A stretch of DNA of 37,480 bases from Acidobacteriaceae bacterium (GTDB taxonomy: Bacteria > Acidobacteriota > Terriglobia > Terriglobales > Acidobacteriaceae), in contig PLBE01000189.1 of assembly GCA_003134435.1 (NCBI GenBank), positions 1 through 37,480 of the forward strand. Reading direction: 5' to 3'. Position 1 is the first letter of the stretch. Every line of letters begins with the position of its first letter. The position numbers and the translations under genes were made by a program. The notes beneath the pieces are model-generated. The model was not told where the DNA came from. It did no database searches and saw nothing but the letters and a program-made list of their open reading frames with translations. Of the stretch, positions 997-25,147 are shown in pieces.

Positions 997-2553
997 ATGG
1001 ATGTAGGGCGTCGGATATCCGTGATTTTTTCTTTCGTTGTCATCGTCATACTGCTGACCGGCAGCAGCTATGCTATCCCCGCGTTCTCGCGACAATATGG
1101 CACCTCGTGTACCACTTGTCATATCGACTTTCCGAAGCTCAATGATTTTGGTAAGGCCTTCAAGGACGCTGGATTCAAATTCCCGAAAGGCGATGAAGAC
1201 TTCATCAAGGTTCCACCGATCATGCTGGGAGCGCCGGCGCAAAAAGATATGTGGCCTCATGTCATCTATCCCGGCACCATCCCCGGGTTGCCGCAAATCG
1301 GCCTGCGATACAACCAATTCTTCCAATACACGAGCGGCAATGCCAACAATTATTACGGGAGCCAAGTCCTTCCGGGGTCAACGCCGGGGTCGGCGCTGCC
1401 GCCGACGATTCCGCGCACTGATTTCCAGGCGGGGTACTTCAGCATTTTTATGGCGGGAAATTTTGGCAGCGACATTGCCTTCTGGGTAGACGACGATTTG
1501 AGTGTGTCGGGTGCCAATGCAAATGGCGCTCTGGGCGACGGGTATCTGCGCTTCGTCAACATCGGGCGTTTCCTCAAGTTGCCCACTGACGCATTCACGG
1601 TGAAGGTGGGCCAGTTCGAGCTTGACTTGCCTTTTACCCAGGCTCGCTCGATCAATATCAGTCCCTACGATATCTACACCCAGGCAAACATCGGCGCGGC
1701 CAATCCAGCGAATGGTCTGCCCAGTGTGAATAACCAGTTTTCGATGCAGGACGGGGCCCAGGGAATCGAATTCAGCGGCGGTCATCAGTATGGCGGCTAT
1801 CACTACTCGCTGGCGGTGGTGAACCAGAACACCAGTGGCGGCGCGGCGGCGGCACCGCCTAATGTCGACACGCCCTCGGCCTTTTTCTCTGACTCCAACT
1901 ATAAAGACGTCTACGGGCGATTTTCTTATCGTTTTAATTTAGAGAAGGATCCGGCGAGCCGGCACGATGTTCAGGCGGCAGGCGCCACGGGACCGCGCGA
2001 CCACACGTATCTGAGCCTCGGCACGTTCTTTTTCAAAGGCCGCTCCGTGCAGCGCTTCAGTGGTTTGACGGGTGGAGGGGCGGCCGAGGTTCTGACCGCG
2101 CGCGAGCCTTTTTACCGGGTCGGCGGGGACTTCAGCTTTAACTATCGTACCTTCAATCTGTTTGGTCTCTACATGTATGCCCACGATCAGAATGTCCTAT
2201 TGAACTCCGGCTTCACCGGATTTGGCAATGGCGATCCAGTCAAATTCAACGGTGGCTTTCTCGAGGCCGACTATCTCGCGTTGCCCTGGGTGATGGCGAT
2301 CATGCGCTACGACCATGTCCAGTCAACTTCGGATTTTCTGAATGGGGCCAGTTCCGGAAACTATTACTCTCCGGTGGGGAGTTCGCGTGATCGGGTCACG
2401 CCCGGCGTGCAGTTTCTGATTCATGCCAACATCAAAACGTCGTTCGAGTACCAGTTTCGTCCAAGACAGGCTCTCGCCTACGACCAGAATGGAAAGCCGT
2501 TGAACTCATTTCGTACGAACACTGCCACCGGCGCTTTGGAATTCGTGTATTAG
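997..2553 (+). CDS. Fused monohaem cytochrome-porin, Cyc2-like outer-membrane protein
   Basis: The start is set at ATG 997 because AAGGAGG (983-989) lies 7 bases upstream; an in-frame ATG at 961 has no ribosome site. The 518-residue product has a signal peptide with likely cleavage after SSYA (about residue 26). The mature N-terminus is IPAFSRQYGTSCTTCH, with one CxxCH haem site at residues 38-42, followed by FPKLNDFGKAFKDAGF. A haem domain with the pattern A-x-P-x-F-[AS]-R-Q...CxxCH...F-P-x-L-x-x-F-G-x-x-F-K is what I know from Cyc2-type fused cytochrome-porins, which oxidise extracellular Fe(II). The remaining ~450 residues are rich in aromatic, Gly and Asn strands and end in EFVY, an aromatic C-terminus typical of outer-membrane beta-barrels. 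The porin fold and the Fe(II) role are inferred; other unassigned families share this motif. It heads a same-strand cluster of redox genes. Confidence 0.72.
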   Translation: MDVGRRISVIFSFVVIVILLTGSSYAIPAFSRQYGTSCTTCHIDFPKLNDFGKAFKDAGFKFPKGDEDFIKVPPIMLGAPAQKDMWPHVIYPGTIPGLPQIGLRYNQFFQYTSGNANNYYGSQVLPGSTPGSALPPTIPRTDFQAGYFSIFMAGNFGSDIAFWVDDDLSVSGANANGALGDGYLRFVNIGRFLKLPTDAFTVKVGQFELDLPFTQARSINISPYDIYTQANIGAANPANGLPSVNNQFSMQDGAQGIEFSGGHQYGGYHYSLAVVNQNTSGGAAAAPPNVDTPSAFFSDSNYKDVYGRFSYRFNLEKDPASRHDVQAAGATGPRDHTYLSLGTFFFKGRSVQRFSGLTGGGAAEVLTAREPFYRVGGDFSFNYRTFNLFGLYMYAHDQNVLLNSGFTGFGNGDPVKFNGGFLEADYLALPWVMAIMRYDHVQSTSDFLNGASSGNYYSPVGSSRDRVTPGVQFLIHANIKTSFEYQFRPRQALAYDQNGKPLNSFRTNTATGALEFVY

Positions 2554-2604
2554 GGGCCGGAATTGCTTGCATCGATTATTACAAGAGAAATTCAAGGAGA
2601 GAGC

Positions 2605-3195
2605 ATGAAACGCACTTTGATCTCGATGATGATGGTAGGGACAGTCGTAATGATGCTGAGCCTGGCGGCCAGCGCGGGCACGATCAGCGGAAAGGTGTCC
2701 GGTGTAAGTGGCGAATCCGTGGTCTACGTGGAAGCCGTAGCCGGCAAGACTTTCCCCGCCCCCACCGCGAAGCCGGTCATCGACCAGAAGGGCCTGATGT
2801 TCCAACCACACATTGTCGTGGTGGAGCAGGGCACGACGGTAGAGTTCCTGAACAGTGACAAAGTTGCCCACAATGTGTTCTGGCCCTCGGTTGGCGGCAA
2901 TAAAAAACTCACCCACAACCTGGGCACATGGCCGCAGGGCGAAAAACGTCCGTTCAAGTTTGACAATGCGGGCGCAGTGCCTCTGTTGTGCAATGTGCAC
3001 CCGGAGATGGCCGGTTACATCGTGGTATCGCCCACTCCGTACTTCGCTCTGACGGATAAATCAGGCGAGTACAAGATCGAGAATGTACCGGACGGCAGCT
3101 ACACAGTTGTGGCGTGGCACGAGGGCGCGAAGAATCAATCCAAGCCGGTGAGTGTGGCGGGCGACAGCAAAGCGGACTTTACCCTGAGCAAGTAG
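2605..3195 (+). CDS. Exported blue-copper (plastocyanin/cupredoxin-like) protein with a C-terminal CarboxypepD_reg-like domain
   Basis: ATG 2605 is preceded by AAGGAG (2594-2599), so this is preferred over the upstream ATG at 2563. The 196-residue product has a signal peptide of about 24 residues ending in LAASA. A type 1 copper site is visible: H89 in DKVAHNVFW, C129 and H132 in LLCNVHPEM, and M135. This His-Cys-His-Met set is the classic mononuclear blue-copper ligand set. The C-terminal segment, SGEYKIENVPDGSYTVVAW, looks like a carboxypeptidase-regulatory/transthyretin-like beta domain. The protein probably shuttles single electrons in the periplasm. Its place between the cytochrome-porin gene and the Rieske/cytochrome b genes suggests it carries electrons between them, but this is inferred from position only. 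Confidence 0.88.
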   Translation: MKRTLISMMMVGTVVMMLSLAASAGTISGKVSGVSGESVVYVEAVAGKTFPAPTAKPVIDQKGLMFQPHIVVVEQGTTVEFLNSDKVAHNVFWPSVGGNKKLTHNLGTWPQGEKRPFKFDNAGAVPLLCNVHPEMAGYIVVSPTPYFALTDKSGEYKIENVPDGSYTVVAWHEGAKNQSKPVSVAGDSKADFTLSK

Positions 3196-3205
3196 TCCAA
3201 CAAAG

Positions 3206-3260
3206 GCCGCGACGTGGGTCGCGGCGGTCCCGTTCTATGACGCCGGGCGGGGACGCCCGG
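3206..3260 (+). other. Two consecutive perfect hairpins between the cupredoxin and flavoprotein genes
   Basis: GCCGCGAC (3206-3213) pairs with GTCGCGGC (3218-3225) around a GTGG loop. CCGGGCG (3243-3249) pairs with CGCCCGG (3254-3260) around GGGA. Neither is followed directly by a T-run; a short TTTT occurs only near 3277-3280. They may tune processing, stability or partial termination between the first two genes and the respiratory complex genes, or the second may be a dispersed intergenic element. Structure seen, function inferred. Confidence 0.6.
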
Positions 3261-3302
3261 TGCTCCACTTGTCTGCTTTTCATATCTTGGGGAACAGCCA
3301 TC

Positions 3303-5414
3303 GTGCTGAAGCGATTCAAAGACAAAAGAGTAGACAGGGATTGGTTGAACACCAACTTTCCTTGCATGATGGCATGTCCGGCGCACACGAATGCGGGCCG
3401 GTACGTCGAACTCATTGCTGAGGGACGATTTGAGGATGCTTACAAGTTTGCGCGCGATCCGAATCCGCTGGCCAGCATCTGCGGGCGGGTTTGCGCGCAT
3501 CCTTGTGAAACGGCCTGTCGCCGGGGCGAAATCGATCGCCCCATCGCCATCCGGGCTCTCAAGCGTTTTCTGACAGAGCGGCACGGACCGGAATCGAAGC
3601 ATCCTCTCGATGTCTATGCCGGCCGAGCTCAGAAGAAACTGCCATTCAAAGTCGCGGTAGTCGGCGGCGGTCCGGTGGGACTCTCGGCGGCGCACGATTT
3701 GGCGTTGATGGGTTACGCGGTTACGATTTTTGAATCGGCCCCGGTGGCCGGCGGAATGCTCTACCTGGGTATTCCCGAATACCGCTTGCCTCGTGATGTA
3801 GTGGAAGCGCAAGTGCGCGAGATCCTTGCCACGGGCGACATCACGCTCCGACTGAATCAGACTGCCGGTCGCGACTTTATGGTTTCGGACCTGCGCCATC
3901 AGGGCTTCGATGCGGTGCTGATTGCCGTGGGCGCGCATCGCAGCCGCGATCTCACCATCCCCGGAGTCGATCTGGATGGGGTTTACAAGGGCATCGACTT
4001 CCTGCTGAACGTGAATCTGGGCTACAAGTTCACCATCGGCAGGAAAGTGATTGTGATTGGCGGCGGTAACGTGGCCATGGACGTGGCGCGTTCGGCGGCT
4101 CGCGAAGTGGTTCGTCAGCATGCCGGTGGAGTCGAAGACCTCGAGCCTTCCCAAGAGAGCGTCAGTGCCGTGGCCACGAAAGAGATGGTGGACGTGTCCC
4201 TCTCTGCGCTGCGCATGGGGGCGCAGGAAGTGCATCTGGTCTGCCTGGAAAAACGCGAAGAGATGCCGGCGGCGCTGGAAGAGATCGAAGAGGCGGAGAC
4301 GGAAGGCATTGTCATGCATCCCGGGCTCGGTCCCAAGCGCATGATTGGCAAGAGTGGCCGAGTCGTGGCGCTCGAGACACTCGATACAAAATGGGTCTTC
4401 GATCAGAACAAGCGCTTCAATCCCGCATTTTATGAGGGCAGTGAAAGACAACTGGAGTGCGACACGGTGATTATGGCCGTGGGGCAGGCGCCACGGCTGG
4501 ACTTCCTCAAACCCGACGATGGCGTGGAAGTGTCTCCGCGTGGGCTGATCGCGGTGAATCCGCAAACCCTGATGACTTCGGCGAACGGAATTTTTGCCGG
4601 CGGCGACTGCGTTTTTGGGCCGCGTCTGATCATCGACAGCGTAGCGGACGGCAAGCGCGCGGCAGTCGGCATTGATGAATTCGTGCGCACTCACCAATTT
4701 CGTGAAGCGGTCGCTGGAGTGGATGGTCGCGAGGATGGCGAGGGACCGCCCCTATCCATTGGCAGCGTGGCGCAGGGCAGGCGGGCCGCAGATGGCATCA
4801 GCGGGCTCATGGCGGGCGAAAGGCACCCGGAACCACTGATCGAAATCGAAGTACTGAAGCGCCACAGTATGCCGCTGGAGCTGTTAGACCTGGTTCGCCC
4901 ACCCATCCCGACGCTGCCGCTGGAGCGCCGCACGGGAGTGACCGAGGTCGAGGTTGGCTATGACGTTCAGTCGGCGATGGAAGAAGCCCAGCGCTGCCTG
5001 CATTGCTGGGTGAATACAGTTTTCGAGGGTTCGCCCGAAGACGGGAGCATGTGCATCCTCTGCGGCGGTTGCGTCGATGTGTGCCCGGAAAACTGCCTGC
5101 AACTGGTCTCCCTCGACCGCATCCATTTCGAGCCTGAAACGGTAGAGCAGATTCGGGAGCACCAGGAACTGTTTGGCGTGGAACTGGACGAAGTGGCGGC
5201 CGACAATCTTGGCATCATAACCGGCTCCGCCATGTTGAAAGACGAGACGCGGTGTATTCGTTGCGGACTGTGCGCGGCGCGCTGTCCCGTCGGCACTATA
5301 ACGATGGAGTCTTACAACCTGGTTTCCGCCGAGCCGACCGGACTGATTTCCGTGGAAGCCATCGATGGACCACTCCGACCTAAGTCGCCCGTAGTGGCTG
5401 GAGGCCCGAAGTAA
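3303..5414 (+). CDS. NAD(P)H-dependent FAD/iron-sulfur oxidoreductase (GltD-like) with C-terminal ferredoxin domain
   Basis: The start is placed at GTG 3303 (GGGGA upstream at about 3289-3293); the frame is open upstream but runs into the preceding gene. The 703-residue product begins with a GltD-type Fe-S domain, with cysteines 21, 25, 60, 64, 68 and 72. FAD-binding GGGPVG follows at 121-126 and the NAD(P)-binding VIGGGNVAMD at about 251-260. The FAD-closing segment IFAGGDCVFGPR comes near residues 426-437. The C-terminal part has CLHC (565-568) and two classical 4Fe-4S motifs, CILCGGCVDVCP (584-595) and CIRCGLCAARCP (651-662). The family transfers electrons between NAD(P)H and Fe-S partners. 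Glutamate synthase partnership is unlikely because no large subunit is adjacent and Rieske starts 2 bases after the stop. It is probably a cytoplasmic module of the Rieske/cytochrome b complex. Confidence 0.88.
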   Translation: MLKRFKDKRVDRDWLNTNFPCMMACPAHTNAGRYVELIAEGRFEDAYKFARDPNPLASICGRVCAHPCETACRRGEIDRPIAIRALKRFLTERHGPESKHPLDVYAGRAQKKLPFKVAVVGGGPVGLSAAHDLALMGYAVTIFESAPVAGGMLYLGIPEYRLPRDVVEAQVREILATGDITLRLNQTAGRDFMVSDLRHQGFDAVLIAVGAHRSRDLTIPGVDLDGVYKGIDFLLNVNLGYKFTIGRKVIVIGGGNVAMDVARSAAREVVRQHAGGVEDLEPSQESVSAVATKEMVDVSLSALRMGAQEVHLVCLEKREEMPAALEEIEEAETEGIVMHPGLGPKRMIGKSGRVVALETLDTKWVFDQNKRFNPAFYEGSERQLECDTVIMAVGQAPRLDFLKPDDGVEVSPRGLIAVNPQTLMTSANGIFAGGDCVFGPRLIIDSVADGKRAAVGIDEFVRTHQFREAVAGVDGREDGEGPPLSIGSVAQGRRAADGISGLMAGERHPEPLIEIEVLKRHSMPLELLDLVRPPIPTLPLERRTGVTEVEVGYDVQSAMEEAQRCLHCWVNTVFEGSPEDGSMCILCGGCVDVCPENCLQLVSLDRIHFEPETVEQIREHQELFGVELDEVAADNLGIITGSAMLKDETRCIRCGLCAARCPVGTITMESYNLVSAEPTGLISVEAIDGPLRPKSPVVAGGPK

Positions 5415-5416
5415 TC

Positions 5417-5947
5417 ATGTCCGACGAAAAACAAAGCAAATCGAACGAGCCTGGCGCCGCAACCGACCACGAGTTTAACCGTCGCGCTTTTTTCGTGAAG
5501 CTGGGATTGGGATCGCTTAGTATCGCGGCGGCCGGCACGGCGGCATTTTCGTATCAGTTTCTCTCGCCCAATGTCTTGTACGAGCCTTCTCCCATCGTCA
5601 ATGCGGGCCGGCCGGAGAATTATCCGGTCGATTCGGTGACGCTGGACGTGAACTCAGGAATTTATCTGATTCATGCGCAGGAGGGTTTTTTTGCGTTGAG
5701 CGCCATCTGTACCCACCTCGGGTGTCTGACGGCATGGAAGCCGGAGTTGGGAGAGCATGGCATCATTGCCTGTCCATGTCATGGCAGCAAGTTTTACGTT
5801 CGCGACGCTGGGAAAACTCCGGGCGAGAAGATTGAAGGTCCAGCCCCCAAGCCGCTGCCCTGGCTGCAGACTTCGCTCAGCGATGAAGGCGACCTGATGG
5901 TCGATCGCTCCAAACAAATTGATCCCATGAAGTTCCTGAGGGTGTGA
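5417..5947 (+). CDS. Rieske iron-sulfur protein of a cytochrome bc/b6f-type complex
   Basis: The 176-residue product has a twin-arginine-like N-terminus ([14 protein letters not shown], residues 21-34) and one membrane segment with [10 protein letters not shown]. It carries the two 2Fe-2S boxes CTHLGC (98-103) and CPCHGS (119-124), so all ligands are present (C98, H100, C119, H122) as well as the disulfide cysteines C103 and C121. It takes one electron from quinol at the outer quinone site and passes it to a c-type cytochrome or copper protein. The ATG lies 2 bases after the flavoprotein stop and the stop overlaps the cytochrome b start region, so translation is probably coupled. At 176 residues it is in the size range of b6f-type Rieske proteins. 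Function assignment is secure. Confidence 0.96.
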
Positions 5948-5949
5948 GC

Positions 5950-6738
5950 GTGGCGAAAACAATCACCAACTATTTCGACGAGTTGCGCGGTACACGGGTA
6001 TGGCGCTCGGTGTTCCGCAGCGGCTCCGGGTCAAGCACTCTGCATCGAGCGCTGGCGATCCAACAGAACGTGTTCCTGCACCTTTTCTCCACTAAAGTGC
6101 GGACTCGCATGCTCAGCTTCAGCGCGACGTGGTATCTGGGCACCCTGACCCTGGGCACATTTCTCATACTAGTGAGCACCGGCATTCCTCTGATGTTCTA
6201 TTACCATCCCTCGGTGCCGCAGGCTTATGCGGACACGAAGGACCTGCAGTTTGTGGTTTCCTCCGGTTTGTTTCTGCGCAACCTGCATCGCTGGTCAGCC
6301 CATGCCATGGTGTTTCTGGTGTTCGCGCACATGTTCAAAGTGTTTTACCGCGGCGCTTACCGCCCGCCGCGCGAGTTCAATTGGGTTATCGGCGTGGTTC
6401 TGCTGCTGATCACACTGCTGCTCAGCTATACGGGCTATCTGTTGCCCTGGGATCAGTTGGCGTTCTGGGCGATCACGGTGGGATCTAATATCGCATCTGC
6501 GGTTCCAGTGATGGGTAACAAGGTTCACTTCCTGATGCTTGGTGGAAACGTGGTGAATGCCAATGCTCTGCTGCGCTTTTATGTGCTGCACTGCATGATT
6601 CTGCCGCTGGTCGCAATATTGTTTGTCGCCATACACTTCTGGCGCATTCGCAAGGATGGCGGCCTCTATGCTCATCAAAGCGAGCCCAGAACAGTTGCGG
6701 CTCGTTCGGTTCCCGCGAAGGGGGTCCCAGTGCCATGA
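5950..6738 (+). CDS. Cytochrome b, N-terminal (b6-like) subunit
   Basis: GTG 5950 is preferred because GAGGG (5938-5942) lies 7 bases upstream; GTG 5944 is an in-frame alternative overlapping the Rieske stop. The 262-residue protein has four predicted membrane helices. The haem b ligands are visible: H113 and H127 in helix B (13 residues between, within [17 protein letters not shown]) and H214 and H229 in helix D (14 between). The 14-residue spacing in helix D is the b6f/Gram-positive pattern, while bc1 has 13. The cysteine that holds haem ci in b6 is not seen in the equivalent [11 protein letters not shown] segment. The stop overlaps the next start as ATGA. It forms the quinone-reacting core with the subunit encoded downstream. 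The short C-terminus after FWRIRKDGG shows the gene is split. Confidence 0.94.
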
Positions 6739-7445
6739 GTGGTCCAACTCCGAAAGATTTCATCGCCGGTATGGATTCGAACGCGCGCAAGTCGCCGACG
6801 CGAGTTGTATTCGTTACGCGGCGGACCTCGGCGCAGGTGAAAGTTACGGCCGAAGATCAGGTGCAGACTTATCCAGAACTGCTCTTTCGAGCTGTGGTTG
6901 CCATCGAAGTGCTGGCGATCGCGCTGGTGAGCATGGCACTTCTGTTCAATGCACCGCTGGAGGGGATTGCGGATCCCTCGCATACGCCGAACCCGGCCAA
7001 GGCGCCTTGGTATTTTCTCGGTTTGCAGGAAATGCTCCACTACTTTCCGCCGGTGGTTGCGGGCGTGCTGGTTCCGGGCCTGGTTGTGATGGCGCTGATT
7101 GTGATTCCGTACTTCAACATTAATGTTGAAGCGGAAGGTCTGTTTTTGAAGGATCGCGAACGTCGCGTCCTTATTTTCTACGTGGTCACGGCTGCGCTCT
7201 GTTTATTCCTGCTTTTGTTTGATGTCTATGTGGCCCTGGTACCGGCGTTGATTGTTGCCGGATTCATGGCGCTGGCGGCGCAAAGTTCTCCACAGTCAGC
7301 CTCGGCCTTCCGGCGTGGTCTGGCTGCGAAGCCGCTTTCTTTCTGGATCATGACCTGGTTTCTGTTCGAACTCACGGTGCTCACGGCGGTCGGTACGTTC
7401 TTCCGCGGCCCAGGATGGTCCTGGGTTCTGCCCTGGAGGAGTTGA
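6735..7445 (+). CDS. Cytochrome b C-terminal (subunit IV-like) subunit
   Basis: The start codon overlaps the preceding stop as ATGA, with AAGGGGG (6718-6724) upstream. The 236-residue product has a soluble N-terminus of about 50 residues, then membrane helices around 51-71, 102-125, 143-162 and further helices near the C-terminus. The Qo-site motif is [15 protein letters not shown]; the usual PEWY is therefore APWY (residues 90-93), with the catalytic Glu replaced. This variant occurs in Rieske/cytochrome b complexes of several non-proteobacterial groups. [16 protein letters not shown] matches the following conserved helix. The protein completes the quinol oxidation site of the b6-like subunit. 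The end of the gene overlaps the Shine-Dalgarno of the octahaem cytochrome gene. Confidence 0.9.
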
Positions 7446-7446
7446 A

Positions 7447-9531
7447 TTGCCATTATCATCGGAATCATCGTTTGAACCAAAGAAGAATTCGTTGTCTGCC
7501 TTGTGGCAGACGCTGTTCGGCCATCCAGTCCGCGCCTTTGGCGTGGTCAGCCTGCTGTTGCTGATTCTTCTTGCCATCGCTCCCGCGAAGAATCATTTCA
7601 GCGAATGGCGCCACTATCAGAAACAGTATCTGGCGCTGATTCGGGGCCGGGGAGACGCGGTCACTTTAGAGCGGCGCTTCCACGATCACGACGGCATCCA
7701 GCAGATCTGGCTACCGCAACTGGGAGTCGTAGATCGCTGCACCAGTTGCCACTCCGGATTGAAGGAAGCCAGCCTGTCCGACGTCAGCACGCAGCCGTTC
7801 CGGCGTCATCCTGCAATTCCTCACACGCTGGACCAATTCGGTTGCGTGATGTGTCACCGCGGTCAGGGTCCTGCCACAACGGTCGAGGAAGCGCACAGCA
7901 GCACGCTGGCGTGGGAGCAGCCGATTTTGCCAGCGCGGTACGTGCAATCATCCTGCGGCCAATGCCATCGCGCTCCGCTCACCGGCACGCCGCAGTTGAA
8001 TTCAGGACGCAACCTGCTGGGACGATATGGCTGCGTCCATTGTCATACCATTAAACTGCCCGACGGCAGCGCGATCAAGCCGACGGACGATCCCCCTTCG
8101 CTGGAGCACGTTGCCGACAAGACCACGCGGGAATGGGTTTATGCGTGGCTAAAGGATCCTCAGGCATATGCGGTCACCGCGACCATGCCAAATTTCAAAT
8201 TGAGCGATCCGGATGCGCGCGATATCTCCGCGTTTCTAATAGCCGACAGCACGCCACTTGCCGGGGATACGGCGCCCACTCCCAAGAATGAAAAGGCGCC
8301 CGACCCGACGGCGGGAGCAAGTTTGTATGGTGAGTCATTCTGCGCTTCCTGCCATGCCGTGCAGAACGCCGCCGGGAACGTGGTGGGCGGAGATGTCGGC
8401 CCGGAACTCACTCGGGTCGGCAACAAAGTGAAGCCGGAGTGGTTGCGCGCTTGGTTGCACAACCCGCGAGTCTACGATTCCGGAACGGCCATGCCGCACT
8501 ATCGACTGAGCGATCCGCAACTTTCGCTGTTGACTGCCTTCCTCGGAAACAAAACCGATACCGATTTGCTGGCGAACGTCCATCTCGATGCCGCTACGCC
8601 GGAGCAGATCGCCCACGGCAAGCTTCTAGTGACCGAGTACGGCTGTGCTTCCTGTCACGAGATCAATGGCATCAAAAAGCCGGATAATTTCGCTCCGGAA
8701 TTGACTCGCATCGGAAGCAAGGCGCTTACCCAAATTATTTTCCTTCCGGGGATGACGCACGCGCTCCCGGATTATATTGCGGCGAAAATCCGGCAACCGC
8801 GCTCGTTTGGATCGGCGCTGAAGATGCCGCAGTTCAGTCTCGCACCTGGGCAGATCGACGCCTTGACCACAGCGCTGCTCTCTCTCACGGACCGGGCACA
8901 AGACTTGCCGAGGGCTTTGACCGTAGCAGCGAAGCCGGCTTCGAATTATCAACCTGCTGGCCGAGCCGGGCAGCTGATGTCAGATCTGGCCTGTTTCAGT
9001 TGCCACGCGATCAATGGCCGCGGGGGCGACATGGCTCCCGACCTCACGTGGGAAGGCAGTTCGGTGCAGCGGCCGTGGCTGCAGGCGTTCTTGAAAAACC
9101 CTGGAACTCTGCGACCGGCGCTGATCCGGCGCATGCCGAGGTTCAATCTTTCCGACGAAGACGCGAAAGAACTGACCGATTACATCATGACGGTGTATCA
9201 GACTCCGGAATTCGATCGCGATTCGATGCCAGCCGGCGGTTACCCCGCGGCCCAGGTGGAGCGGGGGAAACAGCTTTTTTATTCCAAGTACGCATGCCAG
9301 GGTTGTCACATTGTCGATACTAAGGTCGACAAGGGATACATCGGACCAACGCTGACGCAGGTCGGTTCACGCCTGAATGCGGCGTGGATTTATCACTGGC
9401 TGAAAGAGCCGCAGAATTTGCGGCCGGGGACGATTGAACCGAACCGCAACATGCCCGACGAAGATGCCCGCGCGCTGACCGCATTCCTGATGGCGCAGAG
9501 GGGCTCTGGGAAGCAGGAGGCGAAGAAATAA
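7447..9531 (+). CDS. Membrane-anchored octahaem cytochrome c of the Rieske/cytochrome b cluster
   Basis: The likely start is TTG 7447, preceded by GGAGGAG. The 694-residue protein has one N-terminal membrane helix (about 30-46, AFGVVSLLLLILLAIAP) and eight CxxCH sites, at residues 98, 133, 170, 196, 299, 400, 516 and 617. The first three sit close together without obvious distal Met. Each of the last five is followed by a Met-Pro motif (MPNF, MPHY, MPQF, MPRF, NMPDE), so the C-terminal part reads as five tandem class I cytochrome c domains with His-Met haems. It has no transporter or enzyme domain. It probably takes electrons from the Rieske protein and conducts them through the periplasm. 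The gene directly follows subunit IV and is followed 1 base later by another cytochrome gene. Confidence 0.9.
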   Translation: MPLSSESSFEPKKNSLSALWQTLFGHPVRAFGVVSLLLLILLAIAPAKNHFSEWRHYQKQYLALIRGRGDAVTLERRFHDHDGIQQIWLPQLGVVDRCTSCHSGLKEASLSDVSTQPFRRHPAIPHTLDQFGCVMCHRGQGPATTVEEAHSSTLAWEQPILPARYVQSSCGQCHRAPLTGTPQLNSGRNLLGRYGCVHCHTIKLPDGSAIKPTDDPPSLEHVADKTTREWVYAWLKDPQAYAVTATMPNFKLSDPDARDISAFLIADSTPLAGDTAPTPKNEKAPDPTAGASLYGESFCASCHAVQNAAGNVVGGDVGPELTRVGNKVKPEWLRAWLHNPRVYDSGTAMPHYRLSDPQLSLLTAFLGNKTDTDLLANVHLDAATPEQIAHGKLLVTEYGCASCHEINGIKKPDNFAPELTRIGSKALTQIIFLPGMTHALPDYIAAKIRQPRSFGSALKMPQFSLAPGQIDALTTALLSLTDRAQDLPRALTVAAKPASNYQPAGRAGQLMSDLACFSCHAINGRGGDMAPDLTWEGSSVQRPWLQAFLKNPGTLRPALIRRMPRFNLSDEDAKELTDYIMTVYQTPEFDRDSMPAGGYPAAQVERGKQLFYSKYACQGCHIVDTKVDKGYIGPTLTQVGSRLNAAWIYHWLKEPQNLRPGTIEPNRNMPDEDARALTAFLMAQRGSGKQEAKK

Positions 9532-9532
9532 A

Positions 9533-10267
9533 ATGACGAGACAGTGGTGGACGCTCTTTGCAGCCCCGCTCATTCTCCTAAGCACAGCATGCCCGCACAA
9601 ATCCGTACCGGCGGCCTCTCTAAAGCCCACCGGGTTTGGCGTCACGCTGGTCGAGTCGAGCGGAGGTAAGCAGATCGGCCCGACCGGGATGGTCCTGGCT
9701 CAGCCTGTGGTCGTGCAGGTCAATGATGAACAAGGGACAGCGGTCACCGGCGCGCTGGTCGAGTTCAGCGGGCCCGCCGACGCCAGCTTCGATCCTCCCA
9801 CCGGCCTGACCGATTCCAGCGGACAACTCAGCACGAACGTTGCTCTGGGCAGCATGGCAGGCCGGTATCAGCTCACGGCTCGCACTTCTACGAAAGCCCA
9901 GAAATCAGTCGAGCTGAAGATTGAGGAAATTGCCCTGGGGTACCAGGAAGAAGTGGGCTTTCAGCTAGACAGCAAGTATTGTGCCCGTTGCCATGACCCG
10001 GAATCGACGCCGGAACGTGTTTCCAACCACGACAATCTTGAGGTCAAGCCGCACGCCTTTACCGAGGGAGACACCCTCAATAGAATGACGGATGCCGAAC
10101 TAAGCTCAATCATCAGCCACGGTGGCCCCGCCTTGAACAAGTCCGCACTGATGCCCCCGTACGGCTATACTCTCAGCAAGACTGAGATCGAGGCGCTGAT
10201 GGCTTACATTCGCCTGATCTCCGATCCTCCTTATCATGCTTCTGGAATGGTCTATGCCCAAGAGTAG
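9533..10267 (+). CDS. Lipoprotein with an Ig-like (Big1-type) domain and a monohaem cytochrome c domain
   Basis: AGGAGG (9515-9520) precedes ATG 9533. The 244-residue product starts with a lipoprotein signal; the lipobox LSTAC puts the lipidated Cys at residue 20. Residues about 32-135 form an Ig-like repeat with VVQVNDEQGTAVTGALVEF and TDSSGQLSTNVALG, as in bacterial Ig-like group 1 domains. The C-terminal ~105 residues carry one haem site, CARCH (150-154), and a probable distal Met in LMPPYGYTLSKTEIEALM, a class I cytochrome c pattern. The fusion suggests a haem domain held at a membrane or surface by an Ig stalk. It may be the terminal or docking carrier of the cluster. The order in the operon supports that; the partner is not known. 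Confidence 0.85.
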   Translation: MTRQWWTLFAAPLILLSTACPHKSVPAASLKPTGFGVTLVESSGGKQIGPTGMVLAQPVVVQVNDEQGTAVTGALVEFSGPADASFDPPTGLTDSSGQLSTNVALGSMAGRYQLTARTSTKAQKSVELKIEEIALGYQEEVGFQLDSKYCARCHDPESTPERVSNHDNLEVKPHAFTEGDTLNRMTDAELSSIISHGGPALNKSALMPPYGYTLSKTEIEALMAYIRLISDPPYHASGMVYAQE

Positions 10268-11567
10268 GGCCGGTTGGCTCGGCCCACTTCTTTTCCTTGC
10301 AATCTTCTTTGTCATCTTCTTATCCAGCGCATTGCTGGCTCAGGTTGTATCGCCGGTAGAAATTAAAGATGCAGGGTTGCGAGGCCTGCAGCAGCAGTAC
10401 ATGGACGACCTGACCCGGGCCGGGCAGGACATTCTGTCGATTCAGTTCGACTATCCGTTCTACCTGAGCCGGAAACTCGACCTTGACCAGGCGCGGCAGC
10501 AAGTCGCGGACCAGTCGTCGATTCGCTTCGACACCTACAACGGCAAGACAGTAGTCGCGATCACAGGCAATTACTATGCCGCTTACTCTGCGCAAAAGAT
10601 TACTCCCGCACAGCGCGCGCGGAGCACTTTTCTTAATGTGGTCATGCCCATCCTGAGAGCCGCCGTGCCGCACGTTCAAAACAACCAACAGGTACAGGGT
10701 TTCGCGATCGAGGTTTCGCATCACATTGTGGGCAAGGTGATGGGGGTGGCGATGGAGCATCCGGAGAACCTGATGGTTTTCCTGCCTCGAACTGGCGCTC
10801 TCAAACTGCTCGTCGCCAAGGACGAAACTGCACAGCAATCGGCGTTGCTGCAGGGCGCGATATTTCTTAACGCGCAACCCGTTTCCATTTGGCTTAATGA
10901 CACAGTGCCACCGAATGGGAATGCAGGATCCAATTCCAAGGACCCAAATTCGGATGACCCAGCAGATGACGTCTCCGCCAAGCCGAAATTAGAAACCGCG
11001 GCAGCGGGAACCGAGGCCACTTCGATTCCTGCGGTTCCGGTAAAGCCCAAGGAACCACCACCGCCGCCCCGCGATATTTCGACGGAGGCATTGGCCACTG
11101 TCCAACTGTCCAATCAGCCGATCGTCGACGAGATCGTGAAGGGCTTGGATTCGCAGGCTCATTTTGTGGCTTATGCGCCGCCGAGATTCATCGCGTTCCG
11201 GCAGGGAATCTATTTGGAACTCTCAGTGAATTCGGATCTGCCGGCATCGGCCGCGGGATCGCGTTATAAACTTGCGGCCCTGGCGTTCGATGAGCACGTG
11301 GCCCGCCTCATCCGTCCACTGCTGTCGTATTTCAAGGATGAAAAAGAATTTGACGGGTTTGGCTTCAGTACAAATATCCATCTTCCCGGCAAGGCAAATC
11401 CCGGAGGTTCTGAAGCGGTGGAGTTCTTCTTTCCGTTGACCGCCATGCGCTGCTACGAGAAGTACGACTGCACTGGCCAGCAACTACTGGATGCGGGCAC
11501 CGTGCTAATCAATGGCGAACGAGTGGCACTCGATCTGCAGATCGCCGAGGGAGGCTCAAACCGCTGA
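10254..11567 (+). CDS. Exported protein of unknown function with two similar halves and a proline-rich linker
   Basis: I do not recognise the family. ATG 10254 is preferred because it gives a clean signal peptide (MPKSRAGWLGPLLFLAIFF, cleaved near SSALLAQ); ATG 10236 is possible. The gene overlaps the 3' end of the cytochrome lipoprotein gene by 14 bases, so it is translationally tied to the cluster. The 437-residue product has two halves separated by an acidic/Pro-rich linker (about residues 219-272, including KPKEPPPPPRDIS). The halves look related: QQSALLQGAIFLNAQPVSI near the end of the first resembles GQQLLDAGTVLINGERVAL near the end of the second, and both contain an adjacent FLP/FFP segment. 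No haem motif is present. A periplasmic assembly or accessory role is only a guess from context. Confidence 0.8.
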   Translation: MPKSRAGWLGPLLFLAIFFVIFLSSALLAQVVSPVEIKDAGLRGLQQQYMDDLTRAGQDILSIQFDYPFYLSRKLDLDQARQQVADQSSIRFDTYNGKTVVAITGNYYAAYSAQKITPAQRARSTFLNVVMPILRAAVPHVQNNQQVQGFAIEVSHHIVGKVMGVAMEHPENLMVFLPRTGALKLLVAKDETAQQSALLQGAIFLNAQPVSIWLNDTVPPNGNAGSNSKDPNSDDPADDVSAKPKLETAAAGTEATSIPAVPVKPKEPPPPPRDISTEALATVQLSNQPIVDEIVKGLDSQAHFVAYAPPRFIAFRQGIYLELSVNSDLPASAAGSRYKLAALAFDEHVARLIRPLLSYFKDEKEFDGFGFSTNIHLPGKANPGGSEAVEFFFPLTAMRCYEKYDCTGQQLLDAGTVLINGERVALDLQIAEGGSNR

Positions 11568-11747: not shown

Positions 11748-12461
11748 CTAAGCGCCAACTAAGTTCTTCAGCGCGGGGTGATTATGGATGATCAACATCG
11801 AGCCCTTCAGTTCCGCCATGTCGCTCCTCCGGAACTCAGACAGCAGGCGGGTGATGGTTTCGCGGCTGGTGCCAACCAGTTGTGATATTTCTTCATGGGT
11901 CATGGCTAACCGGACGCGCACCGTTCCATTGCTGACTTCACCATCGGCGGCCGTTTCGAGCAGGAATCGGGCAAACCTTTCCGACACCGAATGCGAAAGC
12001 CCGATGGTGCGCACAACGCCGTAGGCGTCCGCACAGTCGCGCGCCAAATGCTGGGTGGCATGGAGCGCGGCGTCGGCGTGATCGTTGAGGAAGCGAAGCA
12101 TATCATCCCGCCCCACAAAGTTAAGTTGGCAAGGCTGCATGGTTTCGACCGTCAGTTCGTAGGGACTGCCGGTAACCACTGCGTGCAAGCCGAGTACTTC
12201 ACCGGCTTCGGCGATGCGCACGATCAGAGTTTTACCATCGCGCGAAGTAGTCGAAAGCTTGGCGCGTCCCTGGCACAGAATGAAAATTCCCCAGGCGCTC
12301 TGTCCCTCGACCAGAACCACGGAATGCTCAGGAAAGGAGGCGGCATGTTTGATGCGGTTGAAATCTTCAATTGACTCCGGAGCGAGGTCGCAGAAAAAGC
12401 TGCGGGAACGCAGATGGCAGTTCAGACAGCTCTCAACGCAGTTCAAGCCGGACATGCTCAT
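11748..12461 (-). CDS. Crp/Fnr-family transcription regulator with FNR-like cysteines
   Basis: The start is the ATG whose complement ends at 12461, because GAAGGAGA lies just upstream; an ATG 30 bases earlier has no such site. The 237-residue product has N-terminal cysteines 8, 12, 15 and 24 (LNCVESCLNCHLRSRSFFC), then a cyclic-nucleotide-like beta-roll (about 30-130) with C111 in MQPCQLNF. C111 is placed like FNR C122, so an oxygen-labile 4Fe-4S cluster is plausible. The C-terminal helix-turn-helix (about 187-207) contains TSRETITRLL. R200, E201 and R205 match the CRP residues that read TGTGA, whereas FNR has Val at the first place. It faces the electron-transfer cluster convergently and is the candidate reader of the 862-877 palindrome. 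The family is certain; the cluster and target are inferred. Confidence 0.92.
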   Translation of the reverse strand: MSMSGLNCVESCLNCHLRSRSFFCDLAPESIEDFNRIKHAASFPEHSVVLVEGQSAWGIFILCQGRAKLSTTSRDGKTLIVRIAEAGEVLGLHAVVTGSPYELTVETMQPCQLNFVGRDDMLRFLNDHADAALHATQHLARDCADAYGVVRTIGLSHSVSERFARFLLETAADGEVSNGTVRVRLAMTHEEISQLVGTSRETITRLLSEFRRSDMAELKGSMLIIHNHPALKNLVGA

Positions 12462-12804
12462 GATCTCTCCTTCATCTCCGGCAGACAACACCTGCGCGGT
12501 TTAGCGGGCAACGATTGCGAGCAGCAAGCATTCGGATCGCATGGCCGCCGTAGCGCCCCTTGCTGACAAGTGATAACAGAGTTTGTGCACGCTGACCGCC
12601 ACCGCGACCAGTTCCATTTCGGACCTAAACCTCAATGCTTGCAGCGGGAGTTCCGCCTGTGGCGGCCAAGTTTAGACGGAAAACTGGCAACCCCGCCGTC
12701 AGTTGGGCACGCGAAGCAGGATCGTAGAGAACGCACACGGTCTGATGGGGAGGGGCTAGGTTGCCCGAGGGGTAGATTCGGGAGATTGTATAATCGGGAT
12801 TCCG
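12462..12804. other. Divergent intergenic region between the Crp/Fnr gene and dnaX
   Basis: No supported gene lies in these 343 bases. A nested inverted repeat is visible: CTAAAC (12625-12630) with GTTTAG (12670-12675), enclosing CCGCC-TGT-GGCGG (12653-12665). The right end holds the dnaX -10 box. I looked for a small SRP RNA, which sits beside dnaX in some bacteria, and did not find the conserved GGAAG-type core. Confidence 0.55.
12789..12794 (+). promoter_or_regulatory. Consensus -10 box (TATAAT) of dnaX, implying a very short leader
   Basis: TATAAT is a perfect -10 hexamer and ends 10 bases before the dnaX ATG at 12805. A start 6-7 bases downstream would give a leader of only 3-5 bases, and no Shine-Dalgarno is present. 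No good -35 is found at 16-18 bases. The hexamer is seen; leaderless translation is an inference. Confidence 0.5.
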
Positions 12805-15179: not shown

Positions 15180-18116
15180 CTACTGGCCGGCTTCGACAAA
15201 GCTGGCGGGATTCGCGGTTCCAGTCGCGGCCATGATAACGAGGGCACCCGGCAACTGAGGGAGTGTATACATCTGGGTTGCGGTTCCCGTGTTGTCGGTG
15301 ACGACGGGATTGGAGTAGAAAAAAGTGCCTCCGGCACCGCCGTCGTTAAAAGTAACGGGAGCGCTGCTGATGACATTGCCGTACTGGTCGGCGACGCTTA
15401 CGACCAGGGCTTGGGGCAACAGGGTTCCAACCGGAGCAACTTGATTGTTGCCGCTAGTCACCGTGATGTTAGCCGGGGGGCCTGCAACGGAGGTCTCGGC
15501 GAAAACTCCGGGAGTGGGTACTCCGCTGGCGGTGGCGTCAATGGTGATGGCAGAGGCCAGCGTGGGGAGCGTATAGAACTCGGTTGCCGTTCCACTGACG
15601 CCAGTCACGACCGTCGCTCCGTTGGAGAAAGTGCCTCCGGCGCCGTTGTCGGAAAAAGTCACATTGACTCCAGGACCAACGTCATTGAACTGATCTTTCA
15701 CTAGCACAGTTAGGGCCTCGGTCAATTGCGTACCCGCCGCCGCCAACTGATTATTGCCGCCGCTGATCGAGATATTGGGGTTGGGGGCAACCGAGTACTC
15801 GATGTAGGTGACTTGTAGAGTCGAACCGTTTGGGCCGGGAGTGCTGGCGGTGACAGTCACCGTGGCCGCAGTGGGCGGCAACTGCAGGTACGTTCGAGCC
15901 ATGCCTGTGGCGTCCGTGGTCACGGAAGATGGATTAGGAACGGCGCCTTTGTTGGCAGTGAAGGTGACGGTAGCACCAGGGACGTTGTTTTTGTTCGCGT
16001 CCTGGACCTGGGCAACGATGGGGTTGGCAAGGATGAAACCGTTGCCGCCGGTCTGCTTTGACCCCCCGTATGCGATGATTTTTGCAGCTCCACCGGGCGT
16101 TGCAGTTCCAGTTGTGGTGGCTGCACCGGACGCGACGTTATTGACCATCAAAGTGGCCGTCAGGGCATAGGTTCCGGTTTTCTTAGGAAGCGTGTAATAT
16201 GCGCTCGCGTTGCCGTTGTTATCGGTGATAGCACTGGCGGGGCTGAACGAACCACCCTTGCCGCCATCGCTGAAAGTAACGGTGTCGCCGGAGTCGGGTT
16301 GTCCGTTGTATGGGTTGGCAATGTTCACCTGCATAGCAACGGGAAGGGTACTACCCGCAGTGCCCGTCTGGGCGTTGCCTCCGGTAATCGTGACGGCGTG
16401 AAACAGCCCAAAGGCTTCAAGGGCATAGGCTGGCGGGTTCGTCTGGGTTTCAGCGGCGACATAAACCTTGCCATTGTCGATCGTCGGAGTGACAAAGTGG
16501 CCAGGCGTACCCATCGCGTCGCGCTTGCTGGGGGCCTGATTCGAGGTGTAGAGCAATTGCAGAGAAACGGCGTCAAAGGCGACGAGTTCAGTGCCGCTGA
16601 TGACCCACAGCACTCCGTTGGTGTTGCCATTGGCGGAAATCGCTGGCGAGTGACTGCCAGAATAGGTGGTGGAACCGGGACTCAGAACCGGCGTGCCGAG
16701 CAATCCGCCGGACAATGGAAAAGCCATGAGCGGAGAGTCATCGGGGGCGATGTATACGGTGTTGTTCCAATAAGTAGGGGAACCGAACCAAATCTCGTTC
16801 TTGGATGTGCCGGGCCCGATGTTGAGCTTCGGAACAGGGAGAGGCAGTTCTTGAAGCACTTGACTGTCGTTAGCGGAGTACCATCCCAAGGCATCGCGAT
16901 CGAGAACATAGACCATGCCCTCCTTGCCGCCCGCGATTAGCTCATGGCCATTCTGCGAGGGGCCGCTGGTTTGATCGGGGAGGATGAGGACCCCTGTGGA
17001 GCTCAAGTCAAGATCGTTGGAATTGAGGAAGCTCACGTACCACGGGGTGAAATAGTCTTCTACTTCGTATTGGTTGTTTTGCTGGCTAATGAGACTTGGC
17101 GAAAGCTCTACAACGCTGTTGCAGTAGGTCTGGCCACCGTTGGGAACATCGAATCCGTGGGACCCGGCTTCGGCAGTCTCAAAGAAGATGTTGCCGGCTT
17201 CATCGGCGGCGAGGCCGTTGCCCGATTCCCAGATGGAAGTGAGTCCGTAGTCTGGGGAAGTGTTAAAGACAGCCAGTTGGGTCAGAGTGGCTTCGCTGTA
17301 GCCAAGCACCCAGCCACTGTTGGCGTCGTTACAGGAGTTCGAGCCAAAGCCCAGATAAAGAACGCCATTCAGCAGCAACAGCCCAGGGCGGTTTTTCTGG
17401 TGAAGACTGTTAAACACGGTTTTGTGTCCCGCATTGCTTATGCTGGTGGCCTGGATCAGGACGGGACTGCCCGGTTGTTCATTGCCCGTGGTGATGTCCA
17501 AAGCGTGGAGGTGATGGCGAACCGTTCCATTGAGGACGGTCTTGGCCACCAGATAGATGGTGTTGGTATTGGGGTCGATGACCGGCGTTCCGACGACACC
17601 TTCCTGGCTGAAACCGGTGCCGTTGGCGCAAGGGAGATATTTGCCACTCGCGGTAGTCGCCCCAGCGCCGACGTTGTTGAGCATGCTGGCATACCAGAGC
17701 TGAGCGCCGGTGTCGGCATCGATGGCGTAGACCGAATCGGCCTGGGTGGCAACGTACATCACATTGTGGGTGCCCTGGCCGGGAATGTTGATGCCGGACA
17801 TGTAGAGGGGCTGTGCCATCACAACATAGTCGACGGTTGAACTGAAGAGCTTGCCAAAACTATTCTTATTGATGTTCGAAGGGGCGAGCAGAGTCTCGTT
17901 GGTGTTAGCGCCGCTTCGGGTGTTGTCGACACGGCTGGTTGGAACATTGATCTGCGCGAAGGAAAGCGACACAAGAGCAAAGACGACTAGCAGGGTCATG
18001 CGAAAATTGCGGAAAGGCCTCGCACTCGACATCGAAGAAATGATCGAACGGTCGAGAGATCGCTTAGGCGCGGCAAAAAAGGTGTTTCCAATATCGGGTG
18101 ACAAGAAGTGGCGCAT
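15180..18116 (-). CDS. Secreted PQQ-like beta-propeller protein with four C-terminal Ig-like (Big1-type) domains
   Basis: The start is placed at the ATG ending at 18116, which has GGAGGT (18126-18131, minus strand) upstream; the frame is open for 21 more codons. A hydrophobic signal segment (MTLLVVFALVSLSFAQ) follows an unusually long ~40-residue N-region, so MSSARPF or MTLLV starts remain possible. The ~978-residue product first has a PQQ/quinoprotein-like propeller, with blades such as MYVATQADSVYAIDADTGAQ and GTPVIDPNTNTIYLV. Four repeats of about 100 residues follow, each with a VTFSDGG-like strand and a TDNxGxA-type turn, ending FVEAGQ. Pyrroloquinoline-quinone catalytic residues are not apparent, so an adhesive or binding role is more likely than a dehydrogenase. 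Convergent with the YbaB gene and divergent from ugd. No function is assigned. Confidence 0.85.
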   Translation of the reverse strand: MRHFLSPDIGNTFFAAPKRSLDRSIISSMSSARPFRNFRMTLLVVFALVSLSFAQINVPTSRVDNTRSGANTNETLLAPSNINKNSFGKLFSSTVDYVVMAQPLYMSGINIPGQGTHNVMYVATQADSVYAIDADTGAQLWYASMLNNVGAGATTASGKYLPCANGTGFSQEGVVGTPVIDPNTNTIYLVAKTVLNGTVRHHLHALDITTGNEQPGSPVLIQATSISNAGHKTVFNSLHQKNRPGLLLLNGVLYLGFGSNSCNDANSGWVLGYSEATLTQLAVFNTSPDYGLTSIWESGNGLAADEAGNIFFETAEAGSHGFDVPNGGQTYCNSVVELSPSLISQQNNQYEVEDYFTPWYVSFLNSNDLDLSSTGVLILPDQTSGPSQNGHELIAGGKEGMVYVLDRDALGWYSANDSQVLQELPLPVPKLNIGPGTSKNEIWFGSPTYWNNTVYIAPDDSPLMAFPLSGGLLGTPVLSPGSTTYSGSHSPAISANGNTNGVLWVISGTELVAFDAVSLQLLYTSNQAPSKRDAMGTPGHFVTPTIDNGKVYVAAETQTNPPAYALEAFGLFHAVTITGGNAQTGTAGSTLPVAMQVNIANPYNGQPDSGDTVTFSDGGKGGSFSPASAITDNNGNASAYYTLPKKTGTYALTATLMVNNVASGAATTTGTATPGGAAKIIAYGGSKQTGGNGFILANPIVAQVQDANKNNVPGATVTFTANKGAVPNPSSVTTDATGMARTYLQLPPTAATVTVTASTPGPNGSTLQVTYIEYSVAPNPNISISGGNNQLAAAGTQLTEALTVLVKDQFNDVGPGVNVTFSDNGAGGTFSNGATVVTGVSGTATEFYTLPTLASAITIDATASGVPTPGVFAETSVAGPPANITVTSGNNQVAPVGTLLPQALVVSVADQYGNVISSAPVTFNDGGAGGTFFYSNPVVTDNTGTATQMYTLPQLPGALVIMAATGTANPASFVEAGQ

Positions 18117-18567
18117 CGCCTTGTTACCTCCAAGATCTACAGCTGGGGGTTTCATGCTGATAAACAGCACTTGAAGCACCGGGGAAGTGGCCGCGCCGAA
18201 AATCTAGAACTTTCACGGAACTGTAACAATTATGATGGTTTATACACTGGAAAGCAGTGAAATCACAATCGGATTCTTTGGCTAAGCGCAAAATGTTGCA
18301 CATTCAGCACTTTTTTCTTCCCTGCGTTGGCCAGCCTAGCGCTTCCGAGGCGGGATCGGCCGGTGAATCCAATTTTCGCGCAAGCTTCGCCGGAGCCAGG
18401 CGTGATGGAGTCACTTTTTCCTGTGAGATTCGAATTCCCGTTCCCGGGCGGGATTGAAGCGGGCTGGCGATAGAGCCGCAGCCACCGCTGAAAACACTGC
18501 TACAGTAGAAAAGCGCTGACCGACGAGCCGGAGGCGCACGTGACACTCCGAGAGAGAAGGCTCGCCT
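18117..18567. other. Divergent intergenic region between the Ig-like repeat protein gene and ugd
   Basis: About 450 bases with no supported gene, apart from a possible N-terminal extension of the minus-strand gene to 18179. It must hold two divergent promoters. I see the ugd Shine-Dalgarno (AGAAGG, 18555-18560) but no convincing -35/-10 pair on either strand, and no tRNA or riboswitch. Confidence 0.45.
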
Positions 18568-22176: not shown

Positions 22177-22731
22177 AATGAGGGCAATCGTAGAAGAGGG
22201 CTTGGACGACCGACAAGTTACCGGTGTCACGATCGAGCGCCACTGAGATGATATTTCGGATCTTCAAGCGTTTTCCGCGCTGGCTTTCTCTCCACCACGG
22301 TTTAACTGGTAATTCCCAGCTCCCACTTTAGTGATCTTTCGCATGGATTTGTCGATCGATAAGATGTCGGGGCGTTCGCTGGGTCTGGAACGAACGCACA
22401 CTGGTGGTTCCAACTCGACTGTGAGGATGCGGCCGGGGGGGACGATGAGTCACGAGCTAAGGTTGCAAATCAGTGCCTGTGTGACGGCGGTAACTCCCCT
22501 GGAATTACCTTACGAAAAGCCAGTGTACGAAAGGCCCGTGTACCCCGGTACTTTGACGTACCAGGGGACAGTTCCTAACATCGAGTTAATCAGACCAATT
22601 TCGCGACGGCGATCCGTACTTCGGATCGCGGGAGATGTTGGGCTGACTTATTTTTGAGTACTACAAAAAGTGTTGACGATCATGTTTCGCGGAACGGGGA
22701 GCCGCACACGCGGCAGATGCTTATGAGAAGC
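22177..22731 (+). other. Long hairpin-rich leader region upstream of the pilin operon
   Basis: About 550 bases with no well-supported gene. Hairpins in the plus-strand transcript are: GCGTTCG 22372-22378 with CGAACGC 22391-22397; CCCCGGTAC 22543-22551 with GTACC-A-GGGG 22558-22567; and GCGATCCG 22609-22616 with CGGATCGC 22622-22629. CCCCTGG at 22496-22502 can also pair perfectly with CCAGGGG at 22561-22567, so the second hairpin has a competing partner. This resembles a regulatory leader with alternative folds. It does not match the GEMM c-di-GMP riboswitch motifs I know. A 108-codon frame at 22331-22657 overlaps it but has no ribosome site. Confidence 0.5.
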
Positions 22732-25141: not shown

Positions 25142-25147
25142 CGGCGA

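Follow-up and report, generated by a model that had tools for sequence, protein, structure and literature searches.

A conserved gene cluster for a predicted Rieske/cytochrome b complex with its own NAD(H)-type flavoprotein in Acidobacteriota

The stretch of DNA described here (the window, 37,480 nt) is contig PLBE01000189.1 of an Acidobacteriaceae bacterium, and is numbered C158 among the 261 contigs that make up the 5.75 Mb draft genome. Between nt 997 and 11567 it carries nine genes, all on the forward strand and recognised from open reading frames (ORFs) and motif counts, which are predicted to specify a Rieske/cytochrome b complex, a flavoprotein of the NAD(H)-oxidoreductase type, and proteins leading to the outer membrane. 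The first gene (nt 997–2553) is predicted to encode a Cyc2-like outer-membrane monohaem cytochrome-porin, with one CTTCH motif in the arrangement AIPAFSRQY...CTTCH...PKL and a barrel model of low confidence. It is followed by a cupredoxin (nt 2605–3195) with the type-1 copper motif CNVHPEM and a carboxypeptidase-regulatory-like C-terminal domain, and then by an Nfn/GltD-like FAD/NAD(H) oxidoreductase (nt 3303–5414; Fer4_20, Pyr_redox_2 and two C-terminal 4Fe-4S motifs). Next come a Rieske protein (nt 5417–5947; Pfam Rieske, with an Arg-Arg N-terminal signal seen by eye), a b6-type cytochrome b (nt 5944–6738) with four haem b histidines, Tyr64, His46 and the basic residues R234, R236 and K237, and a subunit-IV-like membrane protein (nt 6735–7445; motif PAKAPWY, Cytochrom_B_C). 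The cluster ends with an octahaem cytochrome c (nt 7447–9531) that has exactly 8 CXXCH motifs and an N-terminal hydrophobic segment, a monohaem c lipoprotein (nt 9533–10267) with one CARCH motif, a lipobox seen by eye and a weak Big_1 match, and an exported protein without haem, starting at nt 10236 (or 10254) and ending at nt 11567. The original prediction gave eight same-strand genes; the same-strand run is correct, but there are nine genes, as in its own list of components, the split cytochrome b counting as two. Its description of the core (nt 3303–10267) as separated by 0–2 bases or overlapping is confirmed by the coordinates, the spacing being, in order, a gap of 2, two overlaps of 4, and two gaps of 1 base. 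The lipoprotein and last genes overlap by 32 bases, and the gaps upstream of the core are wider (51 and 107 bases).

Pfam families matched within the cluster are Copper-bind, Fer4_20 with Pyr_redox_2 and Fer4, Rieske, Cytochrome_B, Cytochrom_B_C and Cytochrom_C. The Big_1 match of the lipoprotein (32.4) lies below the curated cut-off of 34.9, and neither the outer-membrane protein nor the last protein matched a Pfam family at E 0.001. The AlphaFold2 model of the last protein (mean pLDDT 85.6) found no PDB fold match at E ≤ 0.001. Hydropathy gives no hydrophobic segment in the flavoprotein and four peaks in subunit IV, one of which perhaps holds two helices (the anammox subunit IV has five). 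The best NCBIfam matches of the cytochrome b and subunit IV are ExtP and ExtQ, and the octahaem cytochrome matched SoxX first and ExtS second. The Ext scores fall below the curated equivalog cut-offs (254.4 against 290 for ExtP, 57.4 against 150 for ExtQ, 85.3 against 100 for ExtS). The cluster also differs from Geobacter ExtO/P/Q/S in its NAD(H) flavoprotein, which does not appear in the published extHIJKLMNOPQS list, as given in the accessible part of PMC5877670.

A comparison of gene order across acidobacterial genomes bore out the proposal that these genes form one unit, with a flavoprotein gene that is not regularly separate from those for Rieske and cytochrome b. The named loci are the best 80 of 420 relatives, scanned with the flavoprotein C-terminal domain. 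All 80 are from Acidobacteriota and nearly all are metagenome-assembled, with titles that include Sulfotelmatobacter, Granulicella, Acidobacterium, Bryobacterales, Acidipila and Terracidiphilus. The flavoprotein, Rieske and cytochrome b core lies on one strand in 73/73 named loci with more than 1.5 kb downstream of the flavoprotein. Since the full nine-gene order recurs in 29/80, the arrangement appears to be more than chance; in the remaining 51, contig ends truncate the locus or at least one outer gene has no detected homologue. In an even sample of the phylum (396 genomes), the flavoprotein C-terminal domain was found in 119. A PF00033 cytochrome b was present in 101/101 genomes with a strong match to this domain (E ≤ 1e-32), in 8/18 with a weak one, and in 259/396 overall. 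Sixty loci were picked by hand from the phylum listing, mostly high-scoring ones plus five weak; Rieske and cytochrome b share a strand in 51 of the 55 with a strong flavoprotein. The exceptions are two loci where the cytochrome b is at the stretch edge (L136, L140), one with neither gene (L139) and one with Rieske alone (L141). A weaker flavoprotein subfamily (L181–L185, five loci) has neither Rieske nor cytochrome b nearby. In some loci cytochrome b is split, in others it forms one protein with subunit IV; the multihaem cytochrome mostly has 5 to 8 haems (8 in 66 of the 70 named loci with a detected homologue). A search of plasmid records for relatives outside the phylum gave 99 records, all below 60% identity, the first listed having 36.9%. 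As judged from these sequences, a flavoprotein-bearing Rieske/cytochrome b complex is predicted to be widespread in Acidobacteriota, and is described here as new. No account of such a complex in this phylum was met among literature titles and abstract openings, a survey that leaves subscription papers mostly uncovered. In the accessible portions of the reports on acidobacterial 'cytochrome bc' complexes (PMC10564751, PMC8407424), and on other Rieske/b complexes in Caldithrix (PMC5317091) and Methanoperedens (PMC4683180), no NAD(H) subunit is mentioned.

The closest solved proteins to the flavoprotein, by sequence search against the PDB, are NfnA and its relatives. Fold and Fe-S motifs are alike by sequence to those of NfnA/NfnL, GltD and dihydropyrimidine dehydrogenase; the differences are that the gene here lies beside that of a membrane partner, and that the YRR of five aligned PDB chains (9n5u, 9bov, 8oh5, 4ylf, 5jca) is replaced by C-L-E, the Glu of which is invariant in 18/18 aligned flavoproteins. 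In this fold, loss of the Arg pair together with gain of a Glu favours NAD over NADP, and because of this replacement the pyridine nucleotide is predicted more likely to be NAD. The NAD(P)H flavoprotein originally proposed beside the Rieske/cytochrome b genes is thus supported by Pfam and by the conserved core, with its nucleotide narrowed to the likelier of the two. Separately, residues 463–503 (approximately) form an insertion found only in the window and in L014 and L015 among the 18 aligned flavoproteins. Part of it (SVADGKRAAVGIDEF / SVAQGRRAADGISGL) resembles a copy, as though a segment had undergone duplication.

The parallel with anammox bacteria drawn in the original prediction was supported by the Rieske protein, whose two best PDB matches are the soluble Rieske domains Kuste4569 (9rk4, 72 bits) and Kustd1480 (9rk3, 54.8 bits). 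The accessible part of PMC12954380 describes Kuenenia complexes in which a b6-like cytochrome b and subunit IV are joined by a hexa- or octahaem cytochrome c and an NAD(P) oxidoreductase. It gives potentials of +303 and +335 mV for the Rieske proteins (the latter for Kustd1480), and proposes that the complexes carry out an electron bifurcation that makes NAD(P)H. The ligand of an interface haem b predicted with AlphaFold3 is given there as a cytochrome b histidine not far from the N-terminus (His43/His62), and Arg/Lys residues are noted towards the end of the subunit. The same authors see a large problem for their own scheme in the reduction of quinone close to haem cN, on the negative side; in the acidobacterial form the cysteine for that haem is absent. 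In what is described of them, the clusters Kustd1480–1485 and Kuste4569–4574 resemble the window in having a Rieske protein, a four-helix b6-like cytochrome b with a separate subunit IV, a hexa- or octahaem cytochrome c with a membrane anchor and an Fe-S NAD(P) oxidoreductase. In addition, the window cytochrome b has a histidine close to its N-terminus and basic residues beyond its final helix, at positions that, going by the description, resemble those in Kuenenia. The Ser/Phe pair beside the Rieske cluster of Kustd1480 recurs in the second sphere of the window protein, in 78/79 named Rieske proteins and in 40/52 from the phylum sample, where another 11/52 have Ser/Tyr. The window has the anammox-type pairing of an Nfn/GltD-like oxidoreductase with Rieske and cytochrome b, the two-gene b6-like cytochrome b/subunit IV, and, with its 8 CXXCH motifs, a multihaem cytochrome in place of cytochrome f/c1. 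It differs from the Kuenenia complexes in phylum, in lacking the haem cN cysteine and a hydroxylamine oxidoreductase (HAO)-like cytochrome, and in its additional Cyc2-like porin, cupredoxin and monohaem lipoprotein. Because the cysteine is absent, the predicted acidobacterial complex is a variant rather than a member of the anammox-type set.

The best PDB matches of the window cytochrome b are cytochromes b6, and its haem histidines are kept relative to the plant and cyanobacterial proteins. In the same alignment Tyr64 stands at the position of b6 Cys35, which we take to be the attachment site of haem ci/cN. Neither trait of a cytochrome b6f complex, the haem ci cysteine or cytochrome f, is found in the window complex. 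A residue table was compiled from 179 cytochromes b (167 distinct), with L063 and L066, where a contig end cuts the flavoprotein, dropped. A cysteine at the haem cN position occurs in 0/144 readable flavoprotein-linked cytochromes b, and the predicted absence of this haem cN cysteine from the complex is also new here. His46 is present in 144/144 linked cytochromes b with a residue at that place, against 4/20 unlinked ones, a contrast that is likewise new here. Three of the four, L219, L221 and L222, are related to the linked group; in the fourth, L224, gaps in the alignment around the histidine make it doubtful. Among readable linked rows K237 is kept in 139/139 and R236 in 131/139. His46 appears to be placed like the extra haem ligand predicted for anammox, a likeness in kind, as the Kuenenia position is known by description only and the b6 alignments begin only at residue 63, past His46.

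The reading preferred here, which is considered marginally probable, is that the cluster encodes an NAD(H)-linked Rieske/cytochrome b complex that is connected to the outer membrane and usually makes NADH. On the positive side, the Rieske protein would meet the octahaem cytochrome c, the cupredoxin and the Cyc2-like cytochrome-porin. On the negative side, the b haems would hand electrons to the flavoprotein, probably by way of an extra haem at the dimer interface with His46 as its ligand, and within the flavoprotein the electrons would pass through the Fe-S clusters and FAD to NAD+. Menaquinol could be oxidised with bifurcation, one electron going to the high-potential c/Cu side and one to NAD+, or electrons from the outer membrane could be driven uphill by the proton-motive force. 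From the gene content, gene order, conservation, cofactor motifs and co-variation of cytochrome b with the flavoprotein, all of which were established, we infer that the products would form a physical complex, with a haem on His46 and specificity for NAD; the same holds for the direction of flow and the identity of the outer donor.

The co-variation is seen in a tree of 93 cytochromes b (a quick method, with midpoint rooting and long branches flagged), where all 72 flavoprotein-linked rows fall on one side of a branch. Nested among them are the unlinked rows L221/L222, L219 (end branch 1.46) and L066, the 'minus' state of the last being an artefact of a cut contig. In L219, from the same-genus genome G007 (75% complete), the order is Cyc2-like porin, cupredoxin, Rieske, cytochrome b, subunit IV, octahaem cytochrome and lipoprotein, with no flavoprotein gene between cupredoxin and Rieske, and the best flavoprotein match listed in G007 is a distant relative of 42% identity. 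The cytochrome b of L219 is missing the N-terminal segment conserved elsewhere, and in place of Arg236-Lys237 it reads His-Gln. This flavoprotein-less cluster, also new here, may be a natural deletion, with an assembly error as the alternative. Since the cytochrome b changes accompany the loss of the flavoprotein, it is argued that the flavoprotein touches cytochrome b, and equally that the core can do without it. Another explanation would make the complex an ordinary quinol:cytochrome c/cupredoxin oxidoreductase, the soluble flavoprotein being clustered with it but working elsewhere, for example with ferredoxin. The existence of natural clusters without the flavoprotein, and of the weaker flavoprotein subfamily with no cytochrome b nearby, would suit such an enzyme, but the neighbourhood is near-constant across families, whether cytochrome b is split or fused, residues of cytochrome b track the presence of the flavoprotein, and anammox clusters of the same composition have been described (PMC12954380, as far as accessible), so that this explanation is considered quite improbable. 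The dedicated flavoprotein of the original prediction is therefore near-constant in relatives, but not strictly obligate. Another acidobacterial Rieske/cytochrome b family (L205–L210) lies beside a nine-haem c protein and is without a flavoprotein.

For the outer-membrane end of the preferred NAD(H)-exchanging complex, the Cyc2 signature is given in the accessible part of PMC8406198 as A.P.FAR[QK][TY]...CXXCH...P.L, with OprP/OprO named as templates. The window protein reads AIPAFSRQY-GTS-CTTCH-IDF-PKL and is one residue off (S for one A), with a fitting PKL; several orthologues (e.g. L027, L033, L104, L123) carry the strict signature. It has 518 aa, where the Cyc2 criterion is more than 365 residues, and an N-terminal hydrophobic segment. 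The barrel model has about 16 strands by count and its PDB matches are porins (OprP at rank 3, OprO at ranks 11 and 18), matches to be taken with care because the model is poor (pLDDT 52.5). A relaxed form of the motif occurs once in the window and, in what is only a weak control, 0 times in 2.4 Mb of loci with shuffled bases; the motif is common to two kinds of barrel protein, of about 500 and about 425 residues. The cytochrome-porin proposed at the outset is supported, and is predicted to be Cyc2-like, an assignment that is new here. Of 61 named loci with room, 42 have the relaxed motif upstream, 11 have it at another place on the strand and 8 lack it. These figures bear on a narrower case that overlaps the preferred reading, in which menaquinol bifurcation would feed NAD+ on one side and, with its high-potential electrons, the cupredoxin and the second oxidase on the other, the Cyc2-like protein being otherwise employed, for example as a haem-bearing porin outside electron uptake. 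It fits the anammox proposal, and a cupredoxin gene is present in all 19/61 loci without an upstream motif. The general presence of the motif, and the strong homologue of the window porin kept by 4 of the 8 motif-less loci (L115, L116, L117, L119), speak against it, and the case is judged distinctly unlikely.

Apart from the window cytochrome b, the genome has no PF00033 match. Contig C87 (L195, nt 3927–11438, reverse strand) carries genes for a Cyc2-like protein, a dihaem c, a cupredoxin, COX2, COX1 and two COX3. The same order stands at the start of the Acidithiobacillus rus operon (accessible part of PMC10654088), and is repeated in 9/9 relatives that were chosen for holding that Cyc2-like gene. 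The cupredoxins of C87 and the window are homologous (26.7% identity, E 7e-27), as are the Cyc2-like proteins (25.8%, E 5e-14). Cyc2-like proteins are common in related genomes, as the second one has matches in 49/61, with two or more stretches in 33. The second cluster occurs in 18/23 genomes with the flavoprotein and 11/38 without (Fisher p 0.0002; sorted by eye), but this co-occurrence was rejected as proof of joint function because ancestry explains it, the figures within the family being 17/21 and 11/16 (p 0.46). As described in PMC10654088, pet I and rus of Acidithiobacillus likewise link a Cyc2-like porin and cupredoxin to an oxidase (here C87) and to a bc-type complex (here the window). 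The window complex differs in having its own NAD(H) subunit and octahaem cytochrome, and no rusticyanin was identified in the present material; the likeness is one of genes. A tentative and rather unlikely extension for Acidobacteriota would be a complete two-branch electron uptake, with paralogous Cyc2-like/cupredoxin pairs. One branch would run downhill to an oxidase in a cluster of rus-operon order. In the other, uphill branch a Rieske/cytochrome b complex lacking haem cN would reduce NAD+ directly, by way of a haem at the dimer interface and a flavoprotein bound to the complex, and would bypass complex I.

For the NAD(H)-linked complex itself NADH formation is favoured over NADH use. Running in reverse, NADH would reduce the flavoprotein, cytochrome b and then quinone and/or the c haems, with the cupredoxin and Cyc2-like porin passing electrons to an outside acceptor or oxidase, as an NADH-linked respiratory or extracellular-electron-transfer complex. 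The anatomy would be the same, and Cyc2-motif porins also stand beside unlinked cytochromes b in 5/20 loci (L211, L213, L214, L219, L220), which a quinol-to-surface path predicts and which makes the porin/cytochrome b pairing wider than the NAD(H) module. Such a direction is considered rather unlikely, as the genome already has two NuoH genes, a high-potential Rieske type would be superfluous, and NADH oxidation through haem b would be wasteful, an argument made for Kuenenia in the accessible part of PMC12954380. On contig C118, genes for a pentahaem c, a large Fe-S protein, NrfD, a monohaem c, SCO1 and COX read as an alternative complex III and caa3-type oxidase; together with the two NuoH genes these would serve ordinary respiration, which speaks for the preferred reading.

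Several observations weigh against an NADH-making complex. A RuBisCO large subunit was looked for in the genome and not found, a result that also suits the reverse direction and leaves an autotroph's need for reverse electron flow unsupported. The core is kept without the flavoprotein in L219 and in the two kindred clusters L221 and L222, and so must be able to work without it; His46 is retained in all three and is therefore not exclusive to flavoprotein carriers. A 'cytochrome bc complex' of a Terriglobia metagenome-assembled genome, which may be a different complex, rises with oxygen (PMC10564751, accessible part), and this also fits plain respiration. Consensus scans placed a forward-strand promoter-like site within the lipoprotein gene (nt 10058–10086) and forward-strand terminator-like sites inside the cluster (e.g. 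nt 10267–10285), with promoter- and terminator-like counts close to those of shuffled sequence (7 against 4.9 and 15 against 12.1).

A Rieske/cytochrome b complex that makes NAD(P)H is an open proposal that has so far rested on slow-growing anammox bacteria that are difficult to cultivate. A second, widespread group, which offers a natural flavoprotein-less variant and has no haem cN cysteine, makes the NADH-making proposal testable in other organisms and predicts which residues would be key: His46, the basic cluster and the cytochrome b N-terminus. If true, the preferred reading would also hint that bacteria generally regarded as heterotrophs take up electrons from iron or from outside the cell.

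Of the neighbouring genes, the Crp/Fnr-family regulator (nt 11748–12491, reverse strand) was rejected as a cluster member, since no CRP homologue was labelled (E ≤ 1e-5) in L003–L045; DnaX and a truncated peroxiredoxin at the window ends were rejected likewise, with no homologues labelled in those loci. The regulator has several cysteines near its N-terminus and is possibly oxygen-sensing. A 999-aa protein (nt 15180–18179, reverse strand) has four Big_1 stretches and sub-threshold PQQ-propeller matches. Further along, a run of forward-strand genes (nt 22654–32180) resembles a cluster for minor pilins of a type IV pilus: three of the products have N-terminal methylation motifs, one has a sub-threshold PilX_N match, and two are very large (1160 and 1141 aa).

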